Source of the DNA: Polyrhizophydium stewartii
Taxonomy: Eukaryota; Chytridiomycota; Chytridiomycetes; Rhizophydiales
Assembly: GCA_027604665.1 (NCBI GenBank)
Contig: JADGIZ010000631.1
Coordinates: 1 to 10,858 of the forward strand
DNA length: 10,858 bases
Reading direction: 5' to 3'
The stretch's first letter is position 1, and each line of letters begins with the position of its first letter. Under the pieces are notes generated by a model that worked only from the letters and a program-made list of their open reading frames with translations, did no database searches and was not told the DNA's origin. Both the position numbers and the translations under genes were made by a program. Below, piece after piece: positions 1 to 10,858 of the stretch.

Positions 1-59
1 GGGGGGGCCGCCGGTGCTTCAAGCACCGGGCCTCAGAAGAGCTTCTGAGGCGACGTCGC
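1..59. repeat. GC-rich compound hairpin repeat, copy 1 (window starts inside it)
   Basis: Two consecutive palindromes followed by a third. Bases 11-29 fold as a hairpin of CCGGTGC type with a short TTCA loop. Bases 31-50 form a 20-base palindrome with 9-bp arms (CCTCAGAAG / CTTCTGAGG) around AG. Bases 50-59 are the perfect palindrome GCGACGTCGC. The whole stretch is identical over 59 bases to 7892-7950. In that second copy the leading run of seven G is the right arm of a hairpin whose left arm lies just upstream, so the window edge probably cuts the same hairpin here. No coding role is seen. Confidence 0.93.
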
Positions 60-187
60 TAGCGATCTATCTATGTTGAATGGTTTTAGGTAAGTCTATA
101 TAACTATTGATAAAATTGGCTAATGATTATTCACCCGTAGGTATTTCATGTTTCATCCTTATCTAGCTCCGCTCACCTCTACTACCA

Positions 188-332
188 GGGTCGGCCCCAT
201 GGGGGCGACCCCCCGCCTACGCGGTGGGTCTAGCTATTATACGTATCGGCTCATTGGCCGCGACGTCGCGTCAGCACGCTTTAGCTAGGCCCCCCCCTTA
301 AGGGGGGCCGGTCGCTCCGCGACTCCGTCGCG
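188..332. repeat. Block of GC-rich hairpins
   Basis: Several hairpins lie close together. Bases 188-211 form an 11-position stem (GGGTCGGCCCC against GGGGGCGACCC, one mismatch) with an AT loop. Bases 212-228 form a 6-bp stem with one G-T pair and a TACGC loop. Bases 259-270 are the perfect palindrome CGCGACGTCGCG, which contains the recurrent GCGACGTCGC. Bases 288-309 pair a run of eight C with a run of six G around TTAA. At 320-332 there is a 13-base word, CGACTCCGTCGCG, whose reverse complement occurs at 697-709. This is the same kind of modular block as elsewhere, but with mostly different modules. Confidence 0.85.
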
Positions 333-442
333 TCATTAAATCATTCGCCTCACTCTCGGGGGTGACGCCCTGACCCAGGCAGATATTCCCGCTCTAAACT
401 CCATCTAATTGCTAGTCAACCTAAATGATAAAATGAAGCCTC

Positions 443-620
443 CGGTGTGGCGTAGGTGCTAGTAGGAGCCTTTACAAGGCTCCGGTCGCGGAGGCGACCG
501 GGCTTCGCCCCCCGGCGCTCCAAGCACCGGGTCCTGCTTCAGAGGCGACGTAGATCAGAAATCAGCCAATCAAATAATTCTGATCAGCCGGGGTGTCGGC
601 CCCGCCCGATGAGGTCGTCG
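443..620. repeat. Block of GC-rich hairpins, partly degenerate
   Basis: The order is: GGTGTGGCGTAGG (444-456, also at 8719-8731 and inverted at 4600-4612); the 19-base hairpin at 465-483 (8-bp stem GGAGCCTT / AAGGCTCC, loop TAC); a GGTCGC / GCGACC hairpin at 485-500; a GGGC / GCCC hairpin at 500-510; then a decayed copy of the compound repeat of 1-59 at about 512-551. The 36 bases 454-489 are identical to 10774-10809. A final GGGG / CCCC hairpin lies near 590-603. A reading frame of 73 codons runs across the block, but it merely follows the hairpins and is not a credible gene. Confidence 0.87.
512..551. repeat. Decayed copy of the 59-bp compound hairpin repeat
   Basis: Bases 512-530 match the 19-base hairpin of 11-29 except for two T-to-C changes, both in the left half (CCGGCGCTCC instead of CCGGTGCTTC). 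One of them creates a C-A mismatch in the stem, so it is not compensated. The palindrome that normally follows is then shortened: only GCTTCAGAGGCGACGT remains, so the left arm CCTCAGAAG is lost, and GCGACGTCGC stops after GCGACGT. This reads as a relic copy in the act of losing its palindromes. Confidence 0.75.
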
Positions 621-659
621 TTGACCTGGTGGTGTTTCCCTATTTTAATAGATGGTCTA

Positions 660-3600
660 ATGATAGATCTGATCTGACTTTTTGGCAATAATCAACCGCG
701 ACGGAGTCGCTCCAAATCGCTCATAACCTCATTTGATTTCTTGATTAGATGGTCTAGATAGCGGAAGTTAATAAAAGACAGGGAAAGGCGAGAATAATAG
801 GACTATTTGGTATGGACTAGAAACTAAGAACTGGCTAATGAATCCAGAGAAGGGTAAATCAATGAGACCTTTATTTGCATACAAGAGCAAGCCACTCTCA
901 ATCGACGCCGATTAATATCAGGACAGAAGCGTAGGAGGGGTCACATGTACCTCTAAAGAGATGGGTGGGTCAAAGCGACTCTTTATCATGACAGCCTAAT
1001 TGCCGCGACAAGAAATGTTACAGCTGGCTCTAGCCTTCTAATTGAGCCACCCCCTTTTTGCAAATGATGGCTTACGGGCGCTCTCTTAATCATTCTATCT
1101 AGCTCTGAGACTGCCGAATTTTGTTCCAACGAACTTGAATAGCGGCTCTCCTATTTATGCCACCCCCCAAAGGGTATCAAGGACAACGTAGTTCTCCATT
1201 CGAGTATTTGAACATAGACCCACAATATTCTCCTATATCAAGCGGCGAACCATACCATACGTTTGAGTGAGTCTGAATCCTTGAAACTGTATAAATGGCT
1301 GGGTAGGAAGGCTCTAGAGGGTAGAAACAATGGCCATCTAATTATTAAGGTCCTAGGTCTATGGTTACCCAATTTGAAATTGAATAGGCCACTATTCGAC
1401 CTACCTGGACTGCGAAATCATCCTAAGTTCTATTTGAATGTGAGTTCATAGTACGAATAATGCCTGTCAAGTTGATTTTGAGAAACCCAACACCATCTAA
1501 ATGGTAGAGCCTAAAAGGATCTACGAGAAGTCGTAAGGTCCAGCATAGAAAGATTTGACTATTGACCATCAAGCAGATGATAGCTCTTTGAGGACCGATA
1601 ATTAGTTCAATATATGCCTAAACCGGCGGGGGGGGCTTCACTATCGCTGCTCTTTTTCATGAACCAACCCACAAAACTACATTAGATTCGCAGTAAGCTG
1701 CTCCAGCCCTATTCATTTCTTAGATCGGGCAAATTATTGCTAAAGATTCGGGTTAGTCTGAATGTGAGCACCCAAAATGCATAATATCCGAATTAATCAT
1801 CTTTTAGGAGCCGGCGAGTTCTCAAAGCCTTTTTAGGCAATTTAGCAGTCAAACCATTGACAGGGTTAATTATATTAGCTGGAGGCTTTAAGTAATAGAC
1901 GAGGGATTAGTCTGTCAGTGATATAAAGCAAAGCGAGTTATGAATATATCCATATTGTGTATTAATTTGAACTACTTTTACGCCTTCAACCCACTATGTG
2001 ACGTAGAACGCTTATATAGGTATTTAGACCTCCCACTTGGCTCATCCCAAAGTCAGTAGTCTGCTTGTGAATTACTGATATATTAATTTGAGTAAATGGT
2101 CACTTCCTCCTTTGAAGATTATACCTCATACGCCTCTGAGTTGATCCGTGATATTTTACCATAGAAGGCGAATAGCCAGCCTTTTTGCAATTAATGGCCA
2201 GCTCCTTTAAAACAACCCGCGTTTATCGAGAATTTCAAAAGTCAAACAATCCTAATTTGGCTTAGGGATGTCTCAAAGATCCCGTCACACATTGAGCGTC
2301 CGTTGGCAAAAATCGGGTGCCTCCTGGAAAGCAGTTTCTCTTACTTCATGGTGGTACTTTTCTGTTCCCGTCAAAGTCAGTGATAGCTCTAGACAGTAGA
2401 AAAGGGATGGCTTCATTAATTCTGAAATAGAACGTATGGATTTGCAATCTGATCGGCTGGCCATTTATCCTGTGCCGCGAACCTGCCTAGTTGATAGATT
2501 CAGCCCAAATTGGATCGTCCAATGGGTTTCCTATACAAATGATGTATTGACACCTGCGAGTGTCAGTCTCTTCTTGCAGTACCTTCTGATAACATCCGAT
2601 TGTGATTTTAGTGCTAGAGATAATGGCTTCAAAGCTACAGAAGGTCTGAGTGCGGAATTCCGCCTATATGGAGGGTAATATTAATCTCATAAGAACAAGG
2701 AGTTCGGTACAATCACGCCCGGCAGGGTCACGTCAAAGGAATACGAGTCATTCTGAGTTGACATGAGCAAACTTTTTTGAGACAATTTCCATTCAAACGA
2801 TGTAGTTGTATCGTTACAGGGCAGCCCCCTAGTCTGGACCTCAAGAGTCGGTTTGAGTAGGGTCCTAATTTGAACTTAGAGTTCCTATCAAAATATCGAC
2901 AAACCTTGGATTTTTGTAAAGGTGACTCAGATGTCTCTCTTCAGCTCCTCGTTCAAGCTGGTGTTTTCCCATTTGCGAAGCCGTCTAACTACATCCCTAG
3001 ATTTTGCGGTCATGAGAATGTCAGAATAGTCGATTCTATCTATTGTTCCTTTGGCTTAAGGAGTTATAAGGGAATTCCGTGGCTAGGAGAAAGACTATGC
3101 ACCCCTCCGGGGTAAATCAATCCCTTGGGCATCAAATTGTTTAAGTAAATCCAATCAATCTGAGATTTCGAAACTCTTAGAAAATAATTGCCCCCTCCTA
3201 GACAAGTGTCCAACTATTAGTAGTCGCTACGTCAGGGCGATGGAAGCTCACGACCAAAAAAGTCAGAGGGGCCAATGTCTAATCCCTTGTTGACGATAAT
3301 CGTCATGACTTCGGCTTATCTCTCTAGGAATCCCTTCCTTCCACTTATAGAGCCATGATCAGTTAGTTTTGTGATTCGAAGCTTTTTCATCAAATAGGTC
3401 GTGATAAATCCTCTCCATTTAGTGCTCGACATACAAACCCGTTAAATGCCGGCAGTCTTTCGGACTATGCATCGGCCCAACTGCTTCATTGATGAACTCG
3501 GAGGGGGACCCACCAAGTTATTTCAAAGGACAAGAGATGTCGTGGGTGTAAAGTTAATTAAGCATAAAAGGCAGAAGTAGTCCTCGATGAGTTCTCAGAT

Positions 3601-3740
3601 ATCTACTAGAGTCAAAAGCCTCCTTAGCAGTATGACTTGTCAAGAGGTTAAATGAAGTACTGCCTCAAGTCTATTAGAAAGATGATCTAGTCCCTTAATA
3701 TTAGGTCATCTCTAAAGTACCTGAAAGCCAATGAATCACA
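660..3740. other. 3.1-kb hairpin-free stretch of intermediate G+C, no gene recognised
   Basis: This is the longest part of the window without any member of the GC hairpin family. Sampled lines have about 42-48% G+C, against about 25-30% in later spacers. The longest open frames on the + strand are at 1218-1451, 2436-2678 (ATG start, 80 codons; open back to 2256 apart from one TAG at 2397), 2870-3115 (TTG start, 81 codons) and 3446-3580 (ATG start, 44 codons). None shows a family motif, a ribosome binding site or a consistent partner frame. Runs of this length are expected by chance at this base composition. One isolated palindrome (3291-3305) is listed separately. I see no rRNA or tRNA. Confidence 0.6.
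3291..3305. repeat. 15-base perfect inverted repeat
   Basis: TGACGAT and ATCGTCA flank a single A, giving a perfect 7-bp stem with a one-base centre. It is not part of the GC hairpin family and is the clearest palindrome within the intermediate-G+C stretch. It resembles in size a protein-binding site, but nothing nearby supports an operator role. Confidence 0.6.
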
Positions 3741-3752
3741 CCAGGACTCAAT

Positions 3753-4076
3753 TTGACTAGAACCCTTTTAGGACAAAACTTTCTTAAGTTGTCAACACCT
3801 CTCTGGCTACTCCATTCAAACCGCAATTCAGGTCAAATTCCTAGTGTAGATATTGATATGATGTCAACCCATACCTATTTAATTTATAAACTATTAGGTT
3901 ACACTACTTTAATCGCTATATCTTTAGTATTGAGTCATATTAATTTATGGATCGACTATTTATTTTTGGTTTTACTCCTATCCTTGTTCGACTTGACCTA
4001 TATTGGGACTTTGCCTAAGAAACTAGATGAAAAGGAAGTATATTCTCATCGACTAAGATTTATTGTTACTTATTAG
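3753..4076 (+). other. Weak candidate reading frame for a small two-helix membrane protein
   Basis: This is the longest open frame in the window: 107 codons from a TTG at 3753, or 72 codons from the first ATG pair at 3858 and 3861, ending in TAG at 4074-4076. Counting from 3753, residues about 42-60 and 63-84 are strongly hydrophobic and could be two membrane helices. The tail (residues about 89-101) is rich in Lys, Glu and Arg. Codons end mostly in A or T from about 3860 on, where base composition also drops. Against a real gene: there is no Shine-Dalgarno-like sequence before either start, no recognised family, and chance alone predicts about one frame of this length here. Hydrophobic translations are also a usual product of T-rich DNA. 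I assign no function. Confidence 0.2.
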
Positions 4077-4450
4077 TTCGAGGTGATATTATTATTTAGA
4101 GTCTACATATTTTCATCTAATATTGTTAATAGCTCTTTTATAGTCAAATTCTTATGATAGCCATTTTTGCTAAGGAGGCCCCTCTAATCAGATTGAGGAT
4201 CAATCTCAACTATTAGTTCAAATAAGTAAGTCGAGGGCCAATGCGGTGACTCAAACATATCCCTACTTAAAAATGAGCCTATAAGAATCACTAGAAATAC
4301 TTCATAATCTTAGACCTTTCACTGGATTTCTAATCTATGGCATAGCATAGCCTGAGGCTCTGAGACCCTCTCACTTTCCAGGTATAGCGATATAGGTTTA
4401 GACGGGGAATTATCCCCATAACACTTACCAGAGTCCAGCAATTGTTAAGG
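4077..4450. other. AT-rich spacer, nothing recognised
   Basis: This runs between the weak open frame and the hairpin block at 4453. No open frame of note, RNA gene or hairpin module is visible. With TAG ignored, the preceding frame stays open only to a TGA near 4155, which adds no support for a longer gene. Confidence 0.5.
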
Positions 4451-4452
4451 AT

Positions 4453-4612
4453 TTATGAGCGGCGGCCGCGACGTCGCCTCATAAGCTCTTCTGAGGCCCG
4501 GGACTAGAAGTCCCGGGGCCACTCTAGAGAGTGGCGTCGCGGAGTGACCGGAGCCTTGTAAAGGCTCCTACGTCACGTCCGTGGCCGGCCCCGAAGGGGC
4601 CTACGCCACACC
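4453..4612. repeat. Compound GC-rich block of consecutive hairpins
   Basis: In order: an inverted copy of the CCTCAGAAG module at 4463-4501, matching the reverse complement of 8790-8828 at 38 of 39 bases; GCGACGTCGC at 4468-4477; a 9-bp hairpin CCCGGGACT / AGTCCCGGG with loop AGA at 4497-4517; an 8-bp hairpin GCCACTCT / AGAGTGGC with loop AG at 4518-4535; the 19-base hairpin in inverted orientation at 4550-4568, framed by GTGAC and GTCAC; then GGCCGGCCCC / GGGGCC and the inverted CCTACGCCACACC at 4600-4612. Bases 4536-4581 are identical to 7824-7869 (46 bp). The hairpins abut almost without spacer. Confidence 0.92.
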
Positions 4613-5550
4613 TAGCGATTTATTTCAGCAAGTATAGAATATTCAGTATGATTAGTTCAATACCCCCTGCCATCCTCTAGGGCGCTATTGAGAGGCAACG
4701 GAGTAGGGGTAACCAACTGAGCTTTGTACCTAGAGTTAACTGCCGCAAGAACTTGAAGAGCTAAACTGGAATTACATAAACTTCAATTCAGTTTCGATCC
4801 TAGAATTCTGATCAGATGTGGCTAAATTGTTAGCATAGCTGACGGAAGGACTACTTACGGGTAAGCAGCTTAGTTCTTTGTAATATTCAATTTAGTAGTA
4901 TCTCCTATAAGCCTGGGTCCCATGGTAAGGAATAGTTGGCTTAATGTCTAATGGAGATTAGAAACTCAAATATTAATAGCTTATAGAATTAAATCAATTT
5001 GAGTGAAGTTCCAAAGATTCTACAAGTCAAATTCCATAATCAAGAAACTATTTATGGAAGGCAGCAAATATTCATAGCAAACTAGATCCTTTCAATTATT
5101 AAGTAGGACTAGAGATTTTTTATTATCCTGAATATTCTAGTTCTAAATTACTAATATACCTGATCTTCAACTAGACGACTTATATATCATTTAGTTAATA
5201 TTAAACTCTAGTGTCTCTGATTTTGGATACTATAAAGATAATTATATGAATACTATATGATAAGATGGAGGGATCTAACATATTAATAGTCTATATAAGA
5301 GATTTTAGAAACTCAACTAGAAGTCTAATATAGAAAGATCTCATAGGATATTAGATTATATCGTAGTACTAAAACTGATACCACATCCAGATATAAGAAT
5401 AGACAAGATTACTAAGTGATAATAGTAGAGGGGTTAACTTGGCCCCCCCCCTTAATTATATATTAACTGACTACATGTGTGATTTTATGCTGGGATAAAG
5501 CTTATGAATAAAGGAAAATCTACCTCACAATAATTTGTTCTAATCACGCA
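4613..5550. other. AT-rich non-coding spacer with small inverted repeats
   Basis: Roughly 25-30% G+C in the lines counted, with stops dense in all six frames and no gene or RNA recognised. Bases 4763-4794 form an AT-rich hairpin: AAACTGGAATT against AATTCAGTTT, a 10-bp stem with one bulged G. A run of nine C at 5443-5451, followed by TTAA, resembles the left half of the C-run / TTAA / G-run palindrome at 288-309, without its right half. CTAG words are frequent, but I could not attach a meaning to that. Confidence 0.6.
4763..4794. repeat. AT-rich hairpin
   Basis: Left arm AAACTGGAATT (4763-4773) pairs with right arm AATTCAGTTT (4785-4794) with one bulged G, across an 11-base loop. It lacks a following U-run on either strand, so it is not an obvious terminator. 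Confidence 0.55.
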
Positions 5551-5592
5551 GTCACGTCCGTGACCGGAGCCTTGTAAAGGCTCCTACGTCAC
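5551..5592. repeat. Solitary hairpin unit in AT-rich DNA
   Basis: A single copy of the family, isolated by several hundred AT-rich bases on both sides. GTCAC-GTCC-GTGAC at 5551-5564 forms one small hairpin. The 19-base hairpin (5566-5584, GGAGCCTT / AAGGCTCC) follows, then TAC and a second GTCAC at 5588-5592. The central GTGAC can therefore pair with either the upstream or the downstream GTCAC. The 33 bases 5560-5592 are identical to 4544-4576 and 7832-7864. Because it stands alone, this copy best shows the boundaries of one unit. Confidence 0.9.
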
Positions 5593-5771
5593 TCAATATT
5601 TAGTTGTTCATTCTTTTACTGCTATACCTTTCCTATCATTTGGATCTTTTCTAGAGATCTTTATTTACTTATTTTAGCTGATATCTTTCCTATTTCTTTT
5701 ATCTCGGTGTTTAGATTATAAATATAGATTAGATGGTATTTATAGCTAAGAAATAGGGTCAATGTGGATCA

Positions 5772-5803
5772 GAAATCGAGCAAGGAATGTCCCAAATCGC
5801 TCA
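5772..5803. repeat. 32-bp direct repeat, copy 1
   Basis: Begins GAAATCGAGCAAGG and ends CCCAAATCGCTCA; identical over all 32 bases to 5984-6015, 212 bp downstream. Within the unit AAATCG occurs twice, and GAGC near the left end is complementary to GCTC near the right. It is not GC-rich and does not belong to the hairpin family. The word CCAAATCGCTCA also occurs at 712-723, suggesting a partial third copy. Confidence 0.9.
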
Positions 5804-5912
5804 AACTCAATTACCTCGTCACCAATTATCATGGCACTCATTTATCAAATCCCATATTTGACCTAATCAAACAACACTTGAAATTAATAGTTCTTCTAGA
5901 ATTTGCAATGAG

Positions 5913-5951
5913 ACTTGAACCCATTTACATTCTTCTGAATGGGGTTCAAGT
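5913..5951. repeat. 13-bp hairpin between the two direct-repeat copies
   Basis: ACTTGAACCCATT (5913-5925) pairs with AATGGGGTTCAAGT (5938-5951), 13 bp with one extra G in the right arm, around a 12-base loop. On the minus strand the left part superficially resembles a tRNA T-arm, but no acceptor stem, D-arm or anticodon arm can be built around it. Confidence 0.75.
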
Positions 5952-5983
5952 TTAGTTTATAAATTGGTTCGAGGGGCGGCGCT

Positions 5984-6015
5984 GAAATCGAGCAAGGAAT
6001 GTCCCAAATCGCTCA
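5984..6015. repeat. 32-bp direct repeat, copy 2
   Basis: Identical to 5772-5803. It is preceded by a short GC-rich run (GAGGGGCGGCGC, 5971-5982) that is absent before copy 1, and the flanks diverge at once on both sides, which fits a duplicated or inserted short unit. Confidence 0.9.
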
Positions 6016-6415
6016 GATCGATATATTCACATATTTGATTCACTCATTACATCAATTTGATCGATATAATATTCGAATCCAGTATACCAGCAATAGGGTC
6101 ATATCTATTGGGGATCTCATTTACCTTGTTACCGTCGATCACTAGTAATTTTCAACTAAAATAGGACATAACAAGGATAGATATTCCAAACAAAGAGGAC
6201 AACAGGGTTTGACCACAGAATAAATTAATGCTACATTTGATAAAGGACTTTGCCTATGAATTATTATATAGCGGGAATTACTCCTCCAGATTAATTAATG
6301 CCAAAACTCGATATAGTCAATAGATAGGGAAAATGATCATATAGAATAGCCAAATAAACGTGAGAAATAAGAGTCCCAGGAGCGATAGAATGCACTAAGA
6401 CCCTAATAGAGACTG

Positions 6416-6430
6416 ATCGACTTAGTCGAT
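6416..6430. repeat. 15-base perfect inverted repeat
   Basis: ATCGACT and AGTCGAT flank a single T. A second, outer pair, AGACT (6410-6414) and AGTCT (6439-6443), encloses it. Same format as the palindrome at 3291-3305 but unrelated in sequence. Confidence 0.55.
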
Positions 6431-6893
6431 TATTTCCTAGTCTGGATTGACCTTGCTGTAACAAAAATACTACAGAAGTTGATGATACCGCTTCGCTTAC
6501 TAAAATCCTAATTAGGAATGATTGTTTGTATGGAATGTTTTAAACAATAATAGTCAATTCTGATAGTTTACCAATTATTTCGTGCTTCAAGAATAGGATT
6601 AGAAATAGTCCTGAGTTCAATGTACTATTCTCATATTTTGGTTTCCACTCAATCCGGATTTTCCTAAATTACTATGACATATTGACCTGAACTCAATTCG
6701 GAGGACCTATCTTTTCACATGAGAACCCTAATAGCCAGACCCAGGACAGATTGTGGTTAACTTATTTTGTCTAGATCGCGCCTATCTTATGTAACCAATG
6801 GTCATCTAACGATGTTTTGCTACAATCCTATTGGGGTTTTCTTAAGGAAAGGTCTATTTCTGGATCATATTAAAGATCCTCACCTATATTCTG

Positions 6894-6909
6894 AGCAGCT
6901 CCGCTGCGG
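6894..6909. repeat. 16-bp hairpin word, inverted copy of 8161-8176
   Basis: GCAGC (6895-6899) and GCTGC (6903-6907) form a 5-bp stem with a TCC loop. The 16 bases are the exact reverse complement of 8161-8176, so this small hairpin exists as an inverted pair about 1.25 kb apart. Confidence 0.7.
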
Positions 6910-7548
6910 TTGATCGATGTTTATTGCTGTTACATTATCTCATAGTTCACCTCTAATTCAGATGATGGCATAATATACTACAAGCCAAAGATAAATACTT
7001 TACCAATCCAATAAACATCTTCGATGCTCCCAATGTCACCTATATCTAAGCTCAGAAACGTCTACTGCCTCCTTTGACTATTGATTGGATCCCGTCATAA
7101 TCTAATACCTTGGCCTATACAAACTACTTAGTTGTTCTTTTCCATTAATGACACTTCATCATTATTCTTTGTTTCTACTATTATCTTTAGTTCTTAGGGT
7201 TTTGAAATCTCTATAAAGGCTATCTTACTCATTATTTTTTACAGGATTAATTATTGAATAGTTTCTAGATCTATTTAAGCCACCTACTGTATTATTAGCC
7301 GCTAACATAGGCTGGGCTACCGTACATAATTTGATCTACTATTATTCATTCTGCAACTTGATTTGTTTATCTTTTAGTATTATCATTAATTCTACCGGAT
7401 ATTCGCTATTTACCCTTAGGCTTAGCTAGAGGATCTACCTTGTATCGAGTCCAGACGGCTGCTAGGTTATTAGTATTTGCCATGATAGTTTCAGAGGATC
7501 CTTGACTAAAATGCTTTAGGTTTGATTAGCTATGCTAACCTCTTCAGC

Positions 7549-7610
7549 GGCCCGCCCTACCCAAAAGGGCCGGCCGTAAGGCTAAGCAATTCTACGTATT
7601 GCCTCATTAC
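7549..7610. repeat. GC-rich hairpin pair
   Basis: Bases 7549-7575 pair GGCC and CCCT with AGGG and GGCC, with a symmetrical two-base internal mismatch and a 7-base loop. Just after it GTAAGGC (7576-7582) and GCCTCATTAC (7601-7610) enclose an inner stem GCAAT (7586-7590) / ATTGC (7598-7602). The sequence is unlike the common modules, so it may be an older or different family member. Confidence 0.65.
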
Positions 7611-7788
7611 GCCCCTATCCTGTTATCTAAGGATCTAGCTTCATTTACCTACGCTTGTGTAACTAGTTCACTGCCCTTTCAATATTGTCGTTCACTACAT
7701 ATTTAATAACTCTTAGAATATAGCTCTAACTGGGTTTAATGGATGTTCCTGATAGAGAATGAGATAAAATAAATTGATTAGACTCGAT
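7611..7788. other. Short spacer
   Basis: About 180 bases between two hairpin blocks with nothing recognisable. A 79-codon minus-strand frame starts inside the GC block downstream and runs across this spacer (7713-7952). Its arginine-rich start is just the translated hairpins, so it is not called. Confidence 0.5.
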
Positions 7789-8045
7789 CTGGGGCGGGCC
7801 GGAGCGACGTAGGGCGAAGCCCGGTCGCGGAGTGACCGGAGCCTTGTAAAGGCTCCTACGTCACGTCCGCGACCGGCCCCCCATCGAAGATGGGGGGGCC
7901 GCCGGTGCTTCAAGCACCGGGCCTCAGAAGAGCTTCTGAGGCGACGTCGCACCTGCGAGGCCTAGAAAGGCCCCGGGACCCCTAAAGGGGTCCCGGGCGG
8001 AGGCGACGTCGCGACCTAGCGGTCGCGGGGCGAGCGTAGCGCATA
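7789..8045. repeat. Largest GC-rich hairpin block
   Basis: About 250 bases made almost entirely of palindromes: GGGCGAAGCCC at 7813-7823; the 46-bp segment 7824-7869 with the inverted 19-base hairpin at 7838-7856; a long C-run / G-run hairpin at 7875-7900 with loop near GAAG; the 59-bp compound repeat at 7892-7950; GGCCT / AGGCC at 7959-7972; an 11-bp hairpin CCCGGGACCCC / GGGGTCCCGGG with loop TAAA at 7972-7997; GCGACGTCGC at 8003-8012; then CGCGACC / GGTCGCG around TAGC at 8011-8028. The 18 bases 7949-7966 occur inverted at 10762-10779. Modules from three other blocks are joined here, making it the best key to module order. Confidence 0.93.
7892..7950. repeat. GC-rich compound hairpin repeat, copy 2
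   Basis: Identical over 59 bases to 1-59. Unlike copy 1, its upstream side is visible: the leading G-run is the right arm of a C-run / G-run hairpin beginning at 7875. Downstream it diverges from copy 1 immediately after GCGACGTCGC. Confidence 0.95.
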
Positions 8046-8711
8046 TCTAGTAAGAAATAACCTAAGGTGTTGTAAACGCAGAAAGTAGAAAGCTTCGTAG
8101 ATGATAGGGCAATCTCGGCGTCAAGTTGCTGCCTCCGCGAATTGCTCAAATCCAACTTAGCCGCAGCGGAGCTGCTCCAGGCTCACCTCTTTTGATTCAA
8201 TCACAATACTACTTGTATTATCTAATAGCTCTTTTAGCTTTGATCCCTCTCTGATTATTAATATCAACTCTATACCTATTATATAGCCGCTCTATGAGGA
8301 TACACTCCGAGTCACTATTTATTATGATGCTCAATCCTAGTTGCTTTGCAACCTAATACCAAATACTTTATTATTGAGTCAAACTACTTAAATAGTTTTA
8401 GTTTAATCAACATATGAATGTCGATTGTGTCGATTAAGTCTAGTTTTAAATAAGTAGTTCATCCAATTGATAAAACCTTTAAATAACCAGACCACGCTAA
8501 AGGTTAGTGGTCCAAGTTAATATACAGTAGCAGTAATTAATCGGATATAATCTTTACCTTATCAATGCATTATTATCTTAGAACAACTCCCGTAAATGAA
8601 TGGAATTACTCGTGAATGATTTGGAGTTAGGCTCTAGACATGACCCTATATTCTATGAAATAGGCATAATTGAATTTAGATCGAATTAGTTCAATTTTAT
8701 CCTGATCTTTA
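8046..8711. other. AT-rich non-coding spacer with a long imperfect hairpin
   Basis: No gene or RNA recognised. Bases 8161-8176 are the inverted copy of the GCAGC hairpin at 6894-6909. Bases 8382-8459 form a long imperfect AT-rich inverted repeat. GACCAC / GTGGTC near 8490-8513 gives a 6-bp hairpin. A T-rich stretch at about 8200-8345 reads as hydrophobic residues in one frame only if TGA is taken as Trp, which is not enough to call a gene. Confidence 0.55.
8382..8459. repeat. Long imperfect AT-rich inverted repeat
   Basis: AACTACTTA (8382-8390) pairs perfectly with TAAGTAGTT (8451-8459). Farther in, TTTAATC (8402-8408) faces GATTAAG (8432-8438), with partial pairing between. The loop of about 23 bases holds the start of a GTCGATT direct repeat. 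It differs from the GC family in size and composition. Confidence 0.6.
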
Positions 8712-8830
8712 AGCGGCGGGTGTGGCGTAGGCGAAGGCCGGCCACTCCGCGACCGGAGCCTTTACAAGGCTCCCCCGGATCCTTCAGATCCGGGCCTCAG
8801 AAGAGCTTCTGAGGCGACGTCGCGGCCGCG
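8712..8830. repeat. Block of GC-rich hairpins
   Basis: Order: GGTGTGGCGTAGG at 8719-8731; GGCCGGCC near 8736; the 19-base hairpin at 8755-8773 (same orientation as 465-483 and 10785-10803); an 8-bp hairpin CCCGGATC / GATCCGGG with loop CTTCA at 8774-8794; the CCTCAGAAG palindrome at 8795-8814; GCGACGTCGC at 8814-8823, running on into GCGGCCGCG. The 34 bases 8790-8823 equal 26-59, and 8790-8828 match 4463-4501 inverted with one difference. This block combines modules that occur apart elsewhere. Confidence 0.92.
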
Positions 8831-8950
8831 ATTTAGGTGTTTTTCTAATTGTATGGAATTAGATGAAAGGTATTAGTTTAACCATTACTACAACTTTATT
8901 GTGAATATAATCTTGATTAGCTGCTACATTTGATGGATATTTATCAGTTA

Positions 8951-9145
8951 TCTTGGCCGCGACGTCGCCTATTGAATTATTCATCGGGCCCGTGAACGCG
9001 CAGCTCGCGCAGGCTAGGGCCCTAACCGGCCCGCCCCTTGAGGGGCCGGTCGCGGTCGTGACGTCGCCTCATCGCCGCTTTGCAGCTTCTTATGTTCCTC
9101 AGGCTAACCTGACCACCTTCGGTGGGCTCCGCGCCAAGGTTGCTT
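8951..9145. repeat. GC-rich hairpin region with an open frame across it
   Basis: GCGACGTCGC lies at 8959-8968 and a variant, GTGACGTCGC, at 9058-9067. Between them 9026-9049 fold as CCGG and CCCC around TTGA; this shares CCGGCCCGCCCC and TTGAGGGG with the hairpin at 10811-10831. Farther on are CAGG / CCTG (9100-9111) and CCACC / GGTGG with loop TTC (9113-9125). A 66-codon frame (ATG-less, from 8953 to TGA at 9151) stays open across all this. Codons in 9061-9145 look superficially natural, but GC-rich DNA rarely produces stops, and no family is recognisable. Confidence 0.75.
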
Positions 9146-9890
9146 CATGTTGATTTACTGCAAATTTCTGTAGGACCTTTATATAACACTCCTGTCTAAG
9201 TTGAACTTATAGAAACTCTCTAATCTAGTATTACTATTCAAGATGCACCTGTTTGAAGTATCAGATTAGCAGTCACTCATAGATTTGACAACTTGTTAAC
9301 CAACAGGGAAAGACTGGACATTGATTAGGGCAACATTATCTGTTAACTTGTCTGAATAGATTAGCTTCATCCAATCTCATCTTGAATTAGGTAGTGTTAC
9401 CAAGAGTCTAAATCAGTTTAGATGTTGATAATTAAAATTCAGCTTTAAAAATGAGTAGTAGATTCTCCATAGAACATAGTTACTCATAGATGCTAATCGA
9501 CACCATCCCATCTTCCATTCAAGTGATCTTGAATTGCTTTGACCTAATTCTCTAATCCATCAATGAATATCTTTTACTTATGCTTAGTCTATCATTAAGT
9601 AAGTAATCGTAGTAGTATAATATTGGTCATAGCATTATTGTTAGACTTACAGTTTAAGGTTTTAATGGTAAGAGGTGGGTGATCCTTTCATTTAATTACG
9701 AGTCTATTATGACCTCTATGCTACTAGTTAAAAACGTTATACCTTCAATTGTTAAAGTGGAAATATGGGTTATTGAAAATTCTGATATTGTATAAGCATT
9801 AAACTAAGTATAAGTACAATTTACATATGAATCTACTAAGGCTTTAGAATTCAACATTTAATTTGAGCCATTGAAAAGGTATGCAGATAG
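9146..9890. other. AT-rich spacer, nothing recognised
   Basis: About 745 bases near 27% G+C in the line counted, with stops in all frames, no RNA motif and no module of the GC family. Confidence 0.55.
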
Positions 9891-9914
9891 ATTGGCGCGA
9901 CTAGTCGCGCTAAT
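9891..9914. repeat. 24-base palindrome
   Basis: GCGCGACTAGTCGCGC (9895-9910) is a perfect 16-base palindrome. Three further pairs and one G-T pair extend it to 24 bases with no loop. It is followed by a short GC run, CGCCCCTCCGGGCCG, to 9929. The CGCGAC edge recalls the GC family, but the central CTAG replaces the usual GACGTC centre. Confidence 0.8.
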
Positions 9915-9931
9915 CGCCCCTCCGGGCCGAT

Positions 9932-10482
9932 TTATTGTAGTTAATAAAAGTTTTTCCATAGTCAATTACTTATACATTAACCTTTATTTCAATTATACAT
10001 TTAGGGTCCTAACCTATACCTGATCAGATATTGATGTGGTATTATTGAGCTATGAATAAACTCGCTCTTCCTTGAAACCTAATAATGGATGAATTATTGA
10101 GCCTACCCTCATAAAGCAATTTATATAAGACCTTCGATCCTCTGGATCGACAATTACATAATTTATCACAGCTAAGTTTATCCAATTCGTCCGGAGTGAC
10201 TGTTATTTATCAAGAGAAACACCAAATCTTTACAATGTTAATTTTCGATTAGTTCTTCTAGTTGATAATAGACTCATCTTTGATTATTAGATAGCAAATA
10301 GAGTGGGCATTTTAGAAATGGGAGTGATGAGAGGGGGGAACCACGAGATAACCAACACCAACTTCTTCTCTTATAACTAAAACAACAACCATCAGTAGAA
10401 CAGATAGCATAAATAGAGCCAAATACCAAAAGTACTCTCTAAATGGATAATAAGATAATTGACCAAAACCTCGATGATTATG
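9932..10482. other. AT-rich spacer with one small hairpin
   Basis: No gene or RNA recognised. TCGATCC (10134-10140) and GGATCGA (10144-10150) form a perfect 7-bp hairpin with loop TCT. Confidence 0.55.
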
Positions 10483-10506
10483 TGGGCCCGGCGCCGCGGC
10501 TTCGCG
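10483..10506. repeat. Short GC-rich palindromic island
   Basis: GGGCCC, GGCGCC and GCCGCGGC overlap in 24 bases within AT-rich DNA. It is too short to assign to a known module, and is perhaps a remnant of a block. Confidence 0.5.
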
Positions 10507-10699
10507 ATTTAAAGGGTAACCCTAAATTAGATAACAATGATAGCTATGATGATTTTAGAAATGGGACCTAAATGAGAAAACCACCAAAACGCTATCACGG
10601 TCGCGACTCCTTGCGATCATTTGACTATCTAATACGAATAAGTGGGTAAATAGGGGAGATAAATCTGAGATAAGGGACTAGAGAAGACAGAATCGTGGA

Positions 10700-10858
10700 G
10701 GTGGAGCCAGGGACCGGTCGCGGCTAGCCTCCACCCCGGATCTTAAGAGATCCGGGGGCCCTCTAGGCCTCGCAGGTGCTAGTAGGAGCCTTTACAAGGC
10801 TCCGGTCGCTCCGGCCCGCCCCCTTGAGGGGCGGGGGGCCCCTACAGGGGGCCCGTCA
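10700..10858. repeat. GC-rich hairpin block at the window end
   Basis: GGTGGAG (10700-10706) can pair with CTCCACC (10729-10735) around ACCGGT. A 10-bp hairpin CCCCGGATCT / AGATCCGGGG with loop TAAG follows (10734-10757). TCTAGGCCTCGCAGGTGC (10762-10779) is the inverse of 7949-7966. The 19-base hairpin is at 10785-10803, inside 36 bases identical to 454-489. CCCGCCCC / GGGGCGGG (10815-10835) and GGGCCCC / GGGGCCC (10836-10854) end the block. The window closes inside or just after it. Confidence 0.9.

Follow-up and report, generated by a model that had tools for sequence, protein, structure and literature searches.

GC-rich hairpin elements with exchangeable arms in the mitochondrial DNA of a zoosporic fungus, probably a chytrid

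This analysis dealt with the GC-rich hairpin blocks of a 10,858-base contig from the Polyrhizophydium stewartii assembly (JADGIZ010000631.1; contig C628 of a 12.86-Mb, 690-contig assembly), the whole stretch of which is hereafter called the window. Our best reading is that these blocks are mobile elements resembling double-hairpin elements, that they reside in a fungal mitochondrial genome of very large size, and that template switching has diversified them. We hold with moderate confidence that such elements would be inserted as whole units into chytrid-like fungal mitochondrial DNA, would have their arms diversified by polymerase strand switching, and would adopt a closed, branched fold. At the sequence level, each of the well-defined families was shown to consist of discrete elements whose ends are fixed and whose copies lie between unrelated flanking sequences, and copies of the same scaffold were shown to differ by the swap of an arm, by its inversion in place, or by a two-sided change that keeps it perfect.

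Results

Hairpins were indeed abundant in the window. With arms of at least 7 bases and loops of 2-6 bases, we counted 33 perfect inverted repeats (6 of the 33 being second readings of an already counted palindrome), about eight times the number in 30 dinucleotide shuffles to which the same count was applied (mean 4.2, standard deviation 2.1, maximum 9). GC segmentation delimited 13 GC-rich blocks, the shortest of 14 bases, in agreement with the "at least a dozen" of an earlier note on this sequence. In 172 kb of sampled organelle DNA, window included, there were 178 such blocks, or one per kb (7.3% of bases), and the most frequent perfect palindromes were the GGAGCC (30), GCCTCAGAAG (16) and CCCGGATCC (9) hairpins. 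The order of modules varied: 36 blocks of this sample hold at least two of the 16 modules that we named (only the first being counted where modules overlap), in 27 distinct arrangements, and the GGAGCC hairpin has 11 different neighbours. The extraction of inverted repeats and the mapping of module adjacency, proposed in the earlier note, thus bore out its view that neighbouring modules change from block to block.

The family extends well beyond the window. A pattern search of the whole assembly found 92 exact copies of the 19-base GGAGCC hairpin on 32 contigs (window included), totalling 1,052,013 bases, and the reversed pattern had 0 occurrences in the same assembly. The exact 19-mer had no match in collections of other genome contigs or of viral contigs, and positions 1-8000 of the window had none among plasmids. 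The six copies in the window lie exactly where they had been reported, three in each orientation:

465 to 483, plus strand: GGAGCC hairpin (arm module H1), copy 1
4550 to 4568, minus strand: GGAGCC hairpin, copy 2, within the block 4459 to 4617
4544 to 4548 with 4572 to 4576: GTGAC/GTCAC frame surrounding copy 2
5566 to 5584, minus strand: GGAGCC hairpin, copy 3, in a GTGAC..GTCAC frame with short GC-rich flanks and AT-rich surroundings
7838 to 7856, minus strand: GGAGCC hairpin, copy 4, within the 252-base block
8755 to 8773, plus strand: GGAGCC hairpin, copy 5, arm 3 of the 118-base element
10785 to 10803, plus strand: GGAGCC hairpin, copy 6, in the block at the contig end

Discrete elements and their ends

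Fourteen sites in the assembly carry the 18-base head of the 118-base element. Seven of them, including that of the window, are perfect copies in unrelated flanks; the others comprise one cut by a contig end, one with a single base change and five with altered arms. AT lies directly outside the left end at all 14 heads. The right flank is readable at 13 of them, and TT lies directly outside the right end at 12 of these. Contig C17 holds two unchanged copies of a second, 130-base form, with different flanks. Since blocks of 118 and 130 bases are thus found intact between unrelated flanks, whole blocks do copy, and the earlier proposal that only single hairpins or pairs are copied was not confirmed.

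Smaller families were also delimited. Family A spans 25, 35, 39-40 or 103 bases between identical ends, and its longer forms look like the same element carrying further internal hairpins. Families B (36-42 bases) and C (37 bases) both have fixed ends, and a 17-base unit, GGAGCGACTCCGTCGCG, likewise with fixed ends, has 13 copies in the sample, with distinct flanks and TT immediately before GGAG in each. AT precedes the initial CG in 17 of 18 copies of family A, 5 of 5 of family B and 12 of 12 of the 118-base group, though their sequences otherwise differ.

When words shared by left and right flanks were compared with shuffled pairings, no target duplication of at least 3 bases was found in six families (P = 0.25, 0.98, 0.32, 0.85, 0.07 and 0.13), a test based on words of at least 3 bases that a 2-base duplication could escape. 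Regarding the target motif of family A, the joined words AATTWACGAA and ATTWACGA were not enriched; the target words ATCGCTCAA (4 versus 1.25 expected) and TTGATGATT (9 versus 3.6 expected) were above expectation, but in small numbers.

Exchange, inversion and two-sided change of arms

Two copies (L078 and L079) match the window element at all 99 scaffold bases, with the GGAGCC arm replaced by a GGGGCCCCCC..GGGGGGCCCC arm that lies in opposite orientations in the two (TAA and TTA loops). In two contexts the GGAGCC arm itself occurs in both orientations between identical 6-base flanks, which brings the flips to three when the L078/L079 pair is included. In two further copies (L034 and L073), arm 2 is swapped for the CCGGTGCTT hairpin, and the tip of arm 4 is GGAGCC..GGCTCC. 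Two versions of arm 1 are known in one flank context, GCCTCAGAAG..CTTCTGAGGC (14) and GCCTCATAAG..CTTATGAGGC (2), the change being on both sides; at L026:4257 and L038:6594, arm 1 underwent a two-sided change and the hairpin stays perfect. Because arms were swapped for other hairpins and flipped, deletions from a single ancestral block do not suffice to explain the blocks. This possibility had been raised in the earlier note, as had confinement of the modules to the window, which the 92 copies in the assembly contradict.

Predicted fold

The best-studied block, the 118-base element, is predicted to form not a linear chain of hairpins but a closed, branched structure, in which there are an outer stem, an inner one around three hairpins, and a fourth arm:

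8713 to 8830, minus strand: 118-base element, predicted closed fold
8713 to 8717, plus strand: outer stem, side one (GCGGC), predicted to pair with 8825-8829
8722 to 8745: arm 4, GTGGC-GTA-GGCGAAGGCC-G-GCCAC
8748 to 8753, plus strand: inner stem, side one (CGCGAC), predicted to pair with 8819-8824
8774 to 8794: arm 2, CCCGGATCC hairpin
8794 to 8815: arm 1, GCCTCAGAAG hairpin
8819 to 8824, plus strand: inner stem, side two (GTCGCG)
8825 to 8829, plus strand: outer stem, side two (GCCGC)

The DNA energy of this fold was -40 kcal/mol (z = -5.9), and 0 of 200 shuffles folded as well. The arms being perfect palindromes, such a low energy is largely expected, and the closing stems are therefore the informative part. 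In the element folded without its flanks, the register of the outer stem moves by a few bases and the stem has 4 pairs. Family C was predicted as two adjacent hairpins.

The frames that close around a hairpin tip were then considered as a set. A search gave 64 matches, 13 of which were left out because their insert is not a simple hairpin, leaving 51. The frame GYGRCGTA-X-GGYCRC around a simple hairpin is self-complementary in 40 of 41 cases, in three versions: GTGACGTA..GGTCAC (13), GCGACGTA..GGTCGC (19) and GTGGCGTA..GGCCAC (8). At least 11 different tip hairpins are carried by the frames (terminal stems of at least 4 pairs). A first count, on 10 of the 19 distinct frames around GGAGCC, gave five pairs with two-sided change and a covariation score reached by 0 of 500 shuffles; as those 10 had been picked after seeing which pair, the count was repeated on all 19, for which the score was reached by 1 of 500 shuffles, and 17 cells had two-sided changes (0 of 500 shuffles). 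This covariation is support rather than proof, because the copies are related.

Mitochondrial and fungal origin

The hairpin-bearing contigs differ in composition from other contigs. GC content was 21-52% at the starts of 23 of the 32 (200-300 bases sampled from each; the starts of C42 and C140 read N, and the remaining seven, window included, were read in longer pieces) and 30-40% in one piece each from C1, C2, C17, C98, C29 and C4. Five 10-kb stretches sampled from other contigs had 63-67% GC and none of three common hairpins.

Pieces of cox1 were found on hairpin-bearing contigs C98, C29, C4 and C61 (two of those on C4 and the one on C61 scoring under the family cut-off), and pieces of cob on C285 and C42; an additional cob exon lies on C133, a contig without any copy of the 19-mer. 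The antiporter family had five matches in the assembly, the top three being nad4 on C285 (best solved match E 3e-88), nad5 on C4 (E 4e-79) and nad2 on C611 (E 1e-32). These contain 3, 3 and 10 in-frame TAGs, respectively, and no other stop within the matched region; the three of nad4 are aligned to Leu, Met and Thr in a plant protein (Leu at one of three). TAG is read as leucine in the code of many Chytridiomycota (PMC8672057). The assembly also has chitin-synthase family genes (best E 4e-198; this family also matches 4 of 14 bacterial or archaeal control genomes) and a radial-spoke protein gene (E 9.5e-51; 0 of 14 control genomes), and the psbA family had no match in the assembly contigs searched. 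On these grounds, namely the nad, cox1 and cob pieces, TAG as a sense codon, the chitin synthases, the radial-spoke gene and the lack of a psbA match, the hairpin-bearing contigs are concluded to be the mitochondrial DNA of a zoosporic (flagellate) fungus, most likely a chytrid. A green-algal reading was rejected, given the chitin synthases in the assembly and a psbA family unmatched in the contigs searched.

The earlier note was right to assign the window to organelle DNA through which a modular hairpin family spreads. It erred in calling this genome non-coding, since the contigs that bear the hairpin also carry cox1, cob and nad genes, and in looking to a second organelle: the host being a fungus, a plastid is not expected.

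In the window itself, a tRNA search found none, and none of the 4227 families of Rfam 15 reached its gathering score; at E up to 1, positions 7700-9200 gave a single match (E 0.85), far under that score. A Pfam search of six of the eight window open reading frames (standard stops) gave one weak match under the cut-off and none that was convincing.

Elsewhere, a cox1 frame at L037:7866-7897 enters a hairpin block and meets its first TGA (7895-7897) within a hairpin; the element may provide the cox1 stop codon there. Adjoining cox1 exons on the same piece is a 619-codon frame (L037:1024-2880) that contains a 602-base internal tandem duplication and LAGLIDADG-like motifs.

Genome size

The 1.05 Mb of hairpin contigs looks like one large mitochondrial genome rather than several, because nad2, nad4 and nad5 each gave one strong match and no long segments are shared among the sampled contigs. 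In this comparison, which covered 172 kb with some stretches masked, the common segments were tandem duplicates, hairpin elements and a 277-base cox1 exon match, with no other long ones. The last-numbered contig was the shortest seen, at 10,013 bases, and shorter contigs may be missing from the assembly. Two diverged cox1 first exons, on C29 (L009) and C4 (L011/L039), are 73.6% identical over 277 bases and both open if TAG is a sense codon; either a second genome or duplication of the exon could lie behind them. Copies 97-100% identical also make up tandem duplications of some 0.4-1 kb, which were found in L026, L033/L034, L037, L018, L020, L023, L022 and L032. A morel mitochondrial genome reaches 531 kb. 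For fungal mitochondrial genomes, a range of 12-272 kb is stated (PMC8672057), the upper value of which would be far exceeded by a genome of at least 1.05 Mb, if it is real.

Discussion

From a mechanistic point of view, the element may insert as an undivided unit into AT-rich sites, beside AT, and perhaps does so in the form of a folded single strand. Strand switching by a DNA polymerase at hairpins would then exchange arms, flip them and keep them perfect, one side of an arm templating the other, and short runs of bases common to the feet of two hairpins would allow the replacement of one by the other. The inserting enzyme could be a mitochondrial reverse transcriptase, which is one candidate, and hundreds of insertions would help to bloat the genome. 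Since the flip of an arm or loop requires a complementary template strand, flips point to a step at the DNA level.

Several observations weigh against this scheme. No empty site was found in the 172-kb sample for 175 joined flanks (the 94 junction-spanning rows being self matches or block-holding tandem duplicates), nor in the whole assembly for eight window blocks, the 12 matches all being the window itself. Among the 51 frames with a simple hairpin tip, 10 of the CTAGTA type do not pair, and 3 of the 13 longer frames left out have non-matching ends. When all 19 frames around GGAGCC are taken, no more than 59.6% of the cells of the outer stem pair, and 59 of 500 shuffles reached the 7 pairs with two-sided change. 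Breakpoints between blocks fall inside hairpins in 138 of 695 interior cases, versus 28% of positions, which is only a modest avoidance. The strand preference of the folds, as judged from RNA energies, is mixed between families: of the 11 forms of family A, 6 favour one strand, 3 the opposite one and 2 neither; all 3 of family B favour that opposite strand, as do 9 of 14 in the D/R/T group (2 favour the first strand and 3 are ties), and both forms of family C are ties, in a table where some rows overlap or are unrelated matches. Lastly, some joins could be wrong, given the gaps in the fetched contigs and a window that ends in repeats.

Movement through RNA was weighed as an alternative, in which transcribed, branched RNAs are reinserted by a mitochondrial reverse transcriptase, whose template switching would account for the arm swaps. 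This would suit the fixed ends of the elements and the reverse-transcriptase domain, with two in-frame TAGs, found on hairpin-bearing contig C31 (34091-34414), as well as the lack of target duplication, an argument reported for the Allomyces elements (PMC2800124). The mixed strand preference just described and the complementary template required by arm flips speak against it, and we regard it as unlikely.

Recombination alone, by gene conversion and illegitimate recombination among GC-rich repeats without transposition, seems a little less likely still. It would explain mosaic blocks such as window positions 7799-7904, which are 100% identical to L026:3943-4048 and are adjoined by differing sequence, and near-perfect tandem duplications of 0.4-1 kb do testify to active recombination; conversion should, however, carry flanks along, whereas the seven perfect 118-base copies share their left end base amid unrelated flanks.

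The hairpins could also be functional RNA or DNA signals under selection, such as processing sites, origins or terminators, in line with self-complementary frames in three versions and with the block that overlaps the end of a cox1 frame. About one block per kb, no Rfam family at gathering score and the tolerance of many different tips make this very improbable. An assembly or amplification artefact, in which misjoined repeats yield false mosaics, could draw on the position of both window ends inside hairpin blocks, on runs of 10 Ns in the fetched contigs and on a last-numbered contig of 10,013 bases, as if short contigs had been left out, yet it is the least credible explanation, because the exchanges recur across several contigs with small independent variants and because matching two-sided stem changes are hard to produce by misjoining.

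The parallel with fungal mitochondrial elements that the earlier note had drawn proved to be apt. Double-hairpin elements (DHEs) were first found in Chytridiomycota and are potentially mobile (PMC10085805). Like the DHEs of Allomyces, other chytrids and fission yeasts, the present elements are GC-rich, hairpin-forming and multicopy in fungal mitochondrial DNA. Two adjacent hairpins are predicted for family C, but not for the 118-base element. As the flanks of the Allomyces elements are not duplicated, RNA intermediates were suggested for them (PMC2800124); no flanking duplication was detected here either, in six families. Unlike DHEs, the larger elements have a predicted fold that is closed and branched (four arms and closing stems in the 118-base form), and arms are exchanged and flipped. 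Density also differs: three whole fission yeast mitochondrial genomes have 1, 5 and 14 DHEs (PMC10085805), whereas there is about one GC-rich block per kb here.

In yeast, the AT-rich mitochondrial DNA is interspersed with GC clusters, which are short hairpin elements rich in GC. Their movement is believed to resemble that of DNA transposons and to take place at the DNA level (PMC2800124), whereas no target duplication of the DNA transposon type was found here, with the proviso that one of 2 bases could escape the test. In sponge mitochondria, larger hairpin blocks are duplicated as well as single elements, and larger blocks are likewise copied here; the sponge hosts are, however, animals, and their shorter blocks are explained as reduced full copies rather than as products of arm exchange (PMC2800124).

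The palindromic repeats of Volvox, Haematococcus and Stephanosphaera occur in the organelles of organisms unrelated to this host. Volvox palindromes are often inserted into one another in non-coding organelle DNA, which the longer family A forms recall, but those of the Volvox mitochondrion are AT-rich with TAAA or TTTA loops (PMC2670323). Chlorophycean palindromes moreover belong to a green algal host with a plastid, which does not agree with the chitin synthases and the lack of a psbA-family match here. An exchangeable-arm scaffold is not described in the available excerpts of PMC2670323 or PMC7235400. More generally, no prior description of a closed scaffold with exchangeable, flippable arms was found in the excerpts of the open-licence literature searched, which did not cover the original Allomyces papers.

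Short organelle palindromes are often termed selfish. Their mechanism was left open in the parts of the literature considered (PMC2670323, PMC2800124, PMC7235400). In this respect, identical scaffolds with swapped or flipped arms resemble frozen intermediates, which separate spread (in whole units, with fixed ends and no duplication seen) from diversification (arm by arm, and probably at the DNA level), and the mechanism thereby becomes testable by comparing strains and by long reads. It may tentatively be suggested that these elements form a combinatorial class of mobile element, in which a conserved, branched and self-closing scaffold moves whole and its arms are freely exchanged and inverted, amounting by extrapolation to about 1000 blocks in a fungal mitochondrial DNA of more than 1 Mb. 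A small kit of hairpins would then give many different elements, if this is true.

Other features of the window

Further blocks and one small unit were delimited as follows:

1 to 64: block made of the CCGGTGCTT hairpin, the GCCTCAGAAG hairpin and the end ATCGCTAGCGACG, as read on the minus strand
438 to 550: GC-rich hairpin block
697 to 713, minus strand: 17-base unit GGAGCGACTCCGTCGCG
4459 to 4617: GC-rich hairpin block of 159 bases
7791 to 8042: longest block of the window, 252 bases
10694 to 10858: hairpin block interrupted by the contig end

Positions 1001-3500 have a GC content of 40-44%, their sole GC-rich block is short (14 bases at 1623), and no gene was recognised there. An open reading frame of 107 codons at 3753-4076 encodes a hydrophobic stretch and has no Pfam match. 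Outside the GC-rich blocks, a 32-base direct repeat occurs at 5772-5803 and 5984-6015, 212 bases apart.

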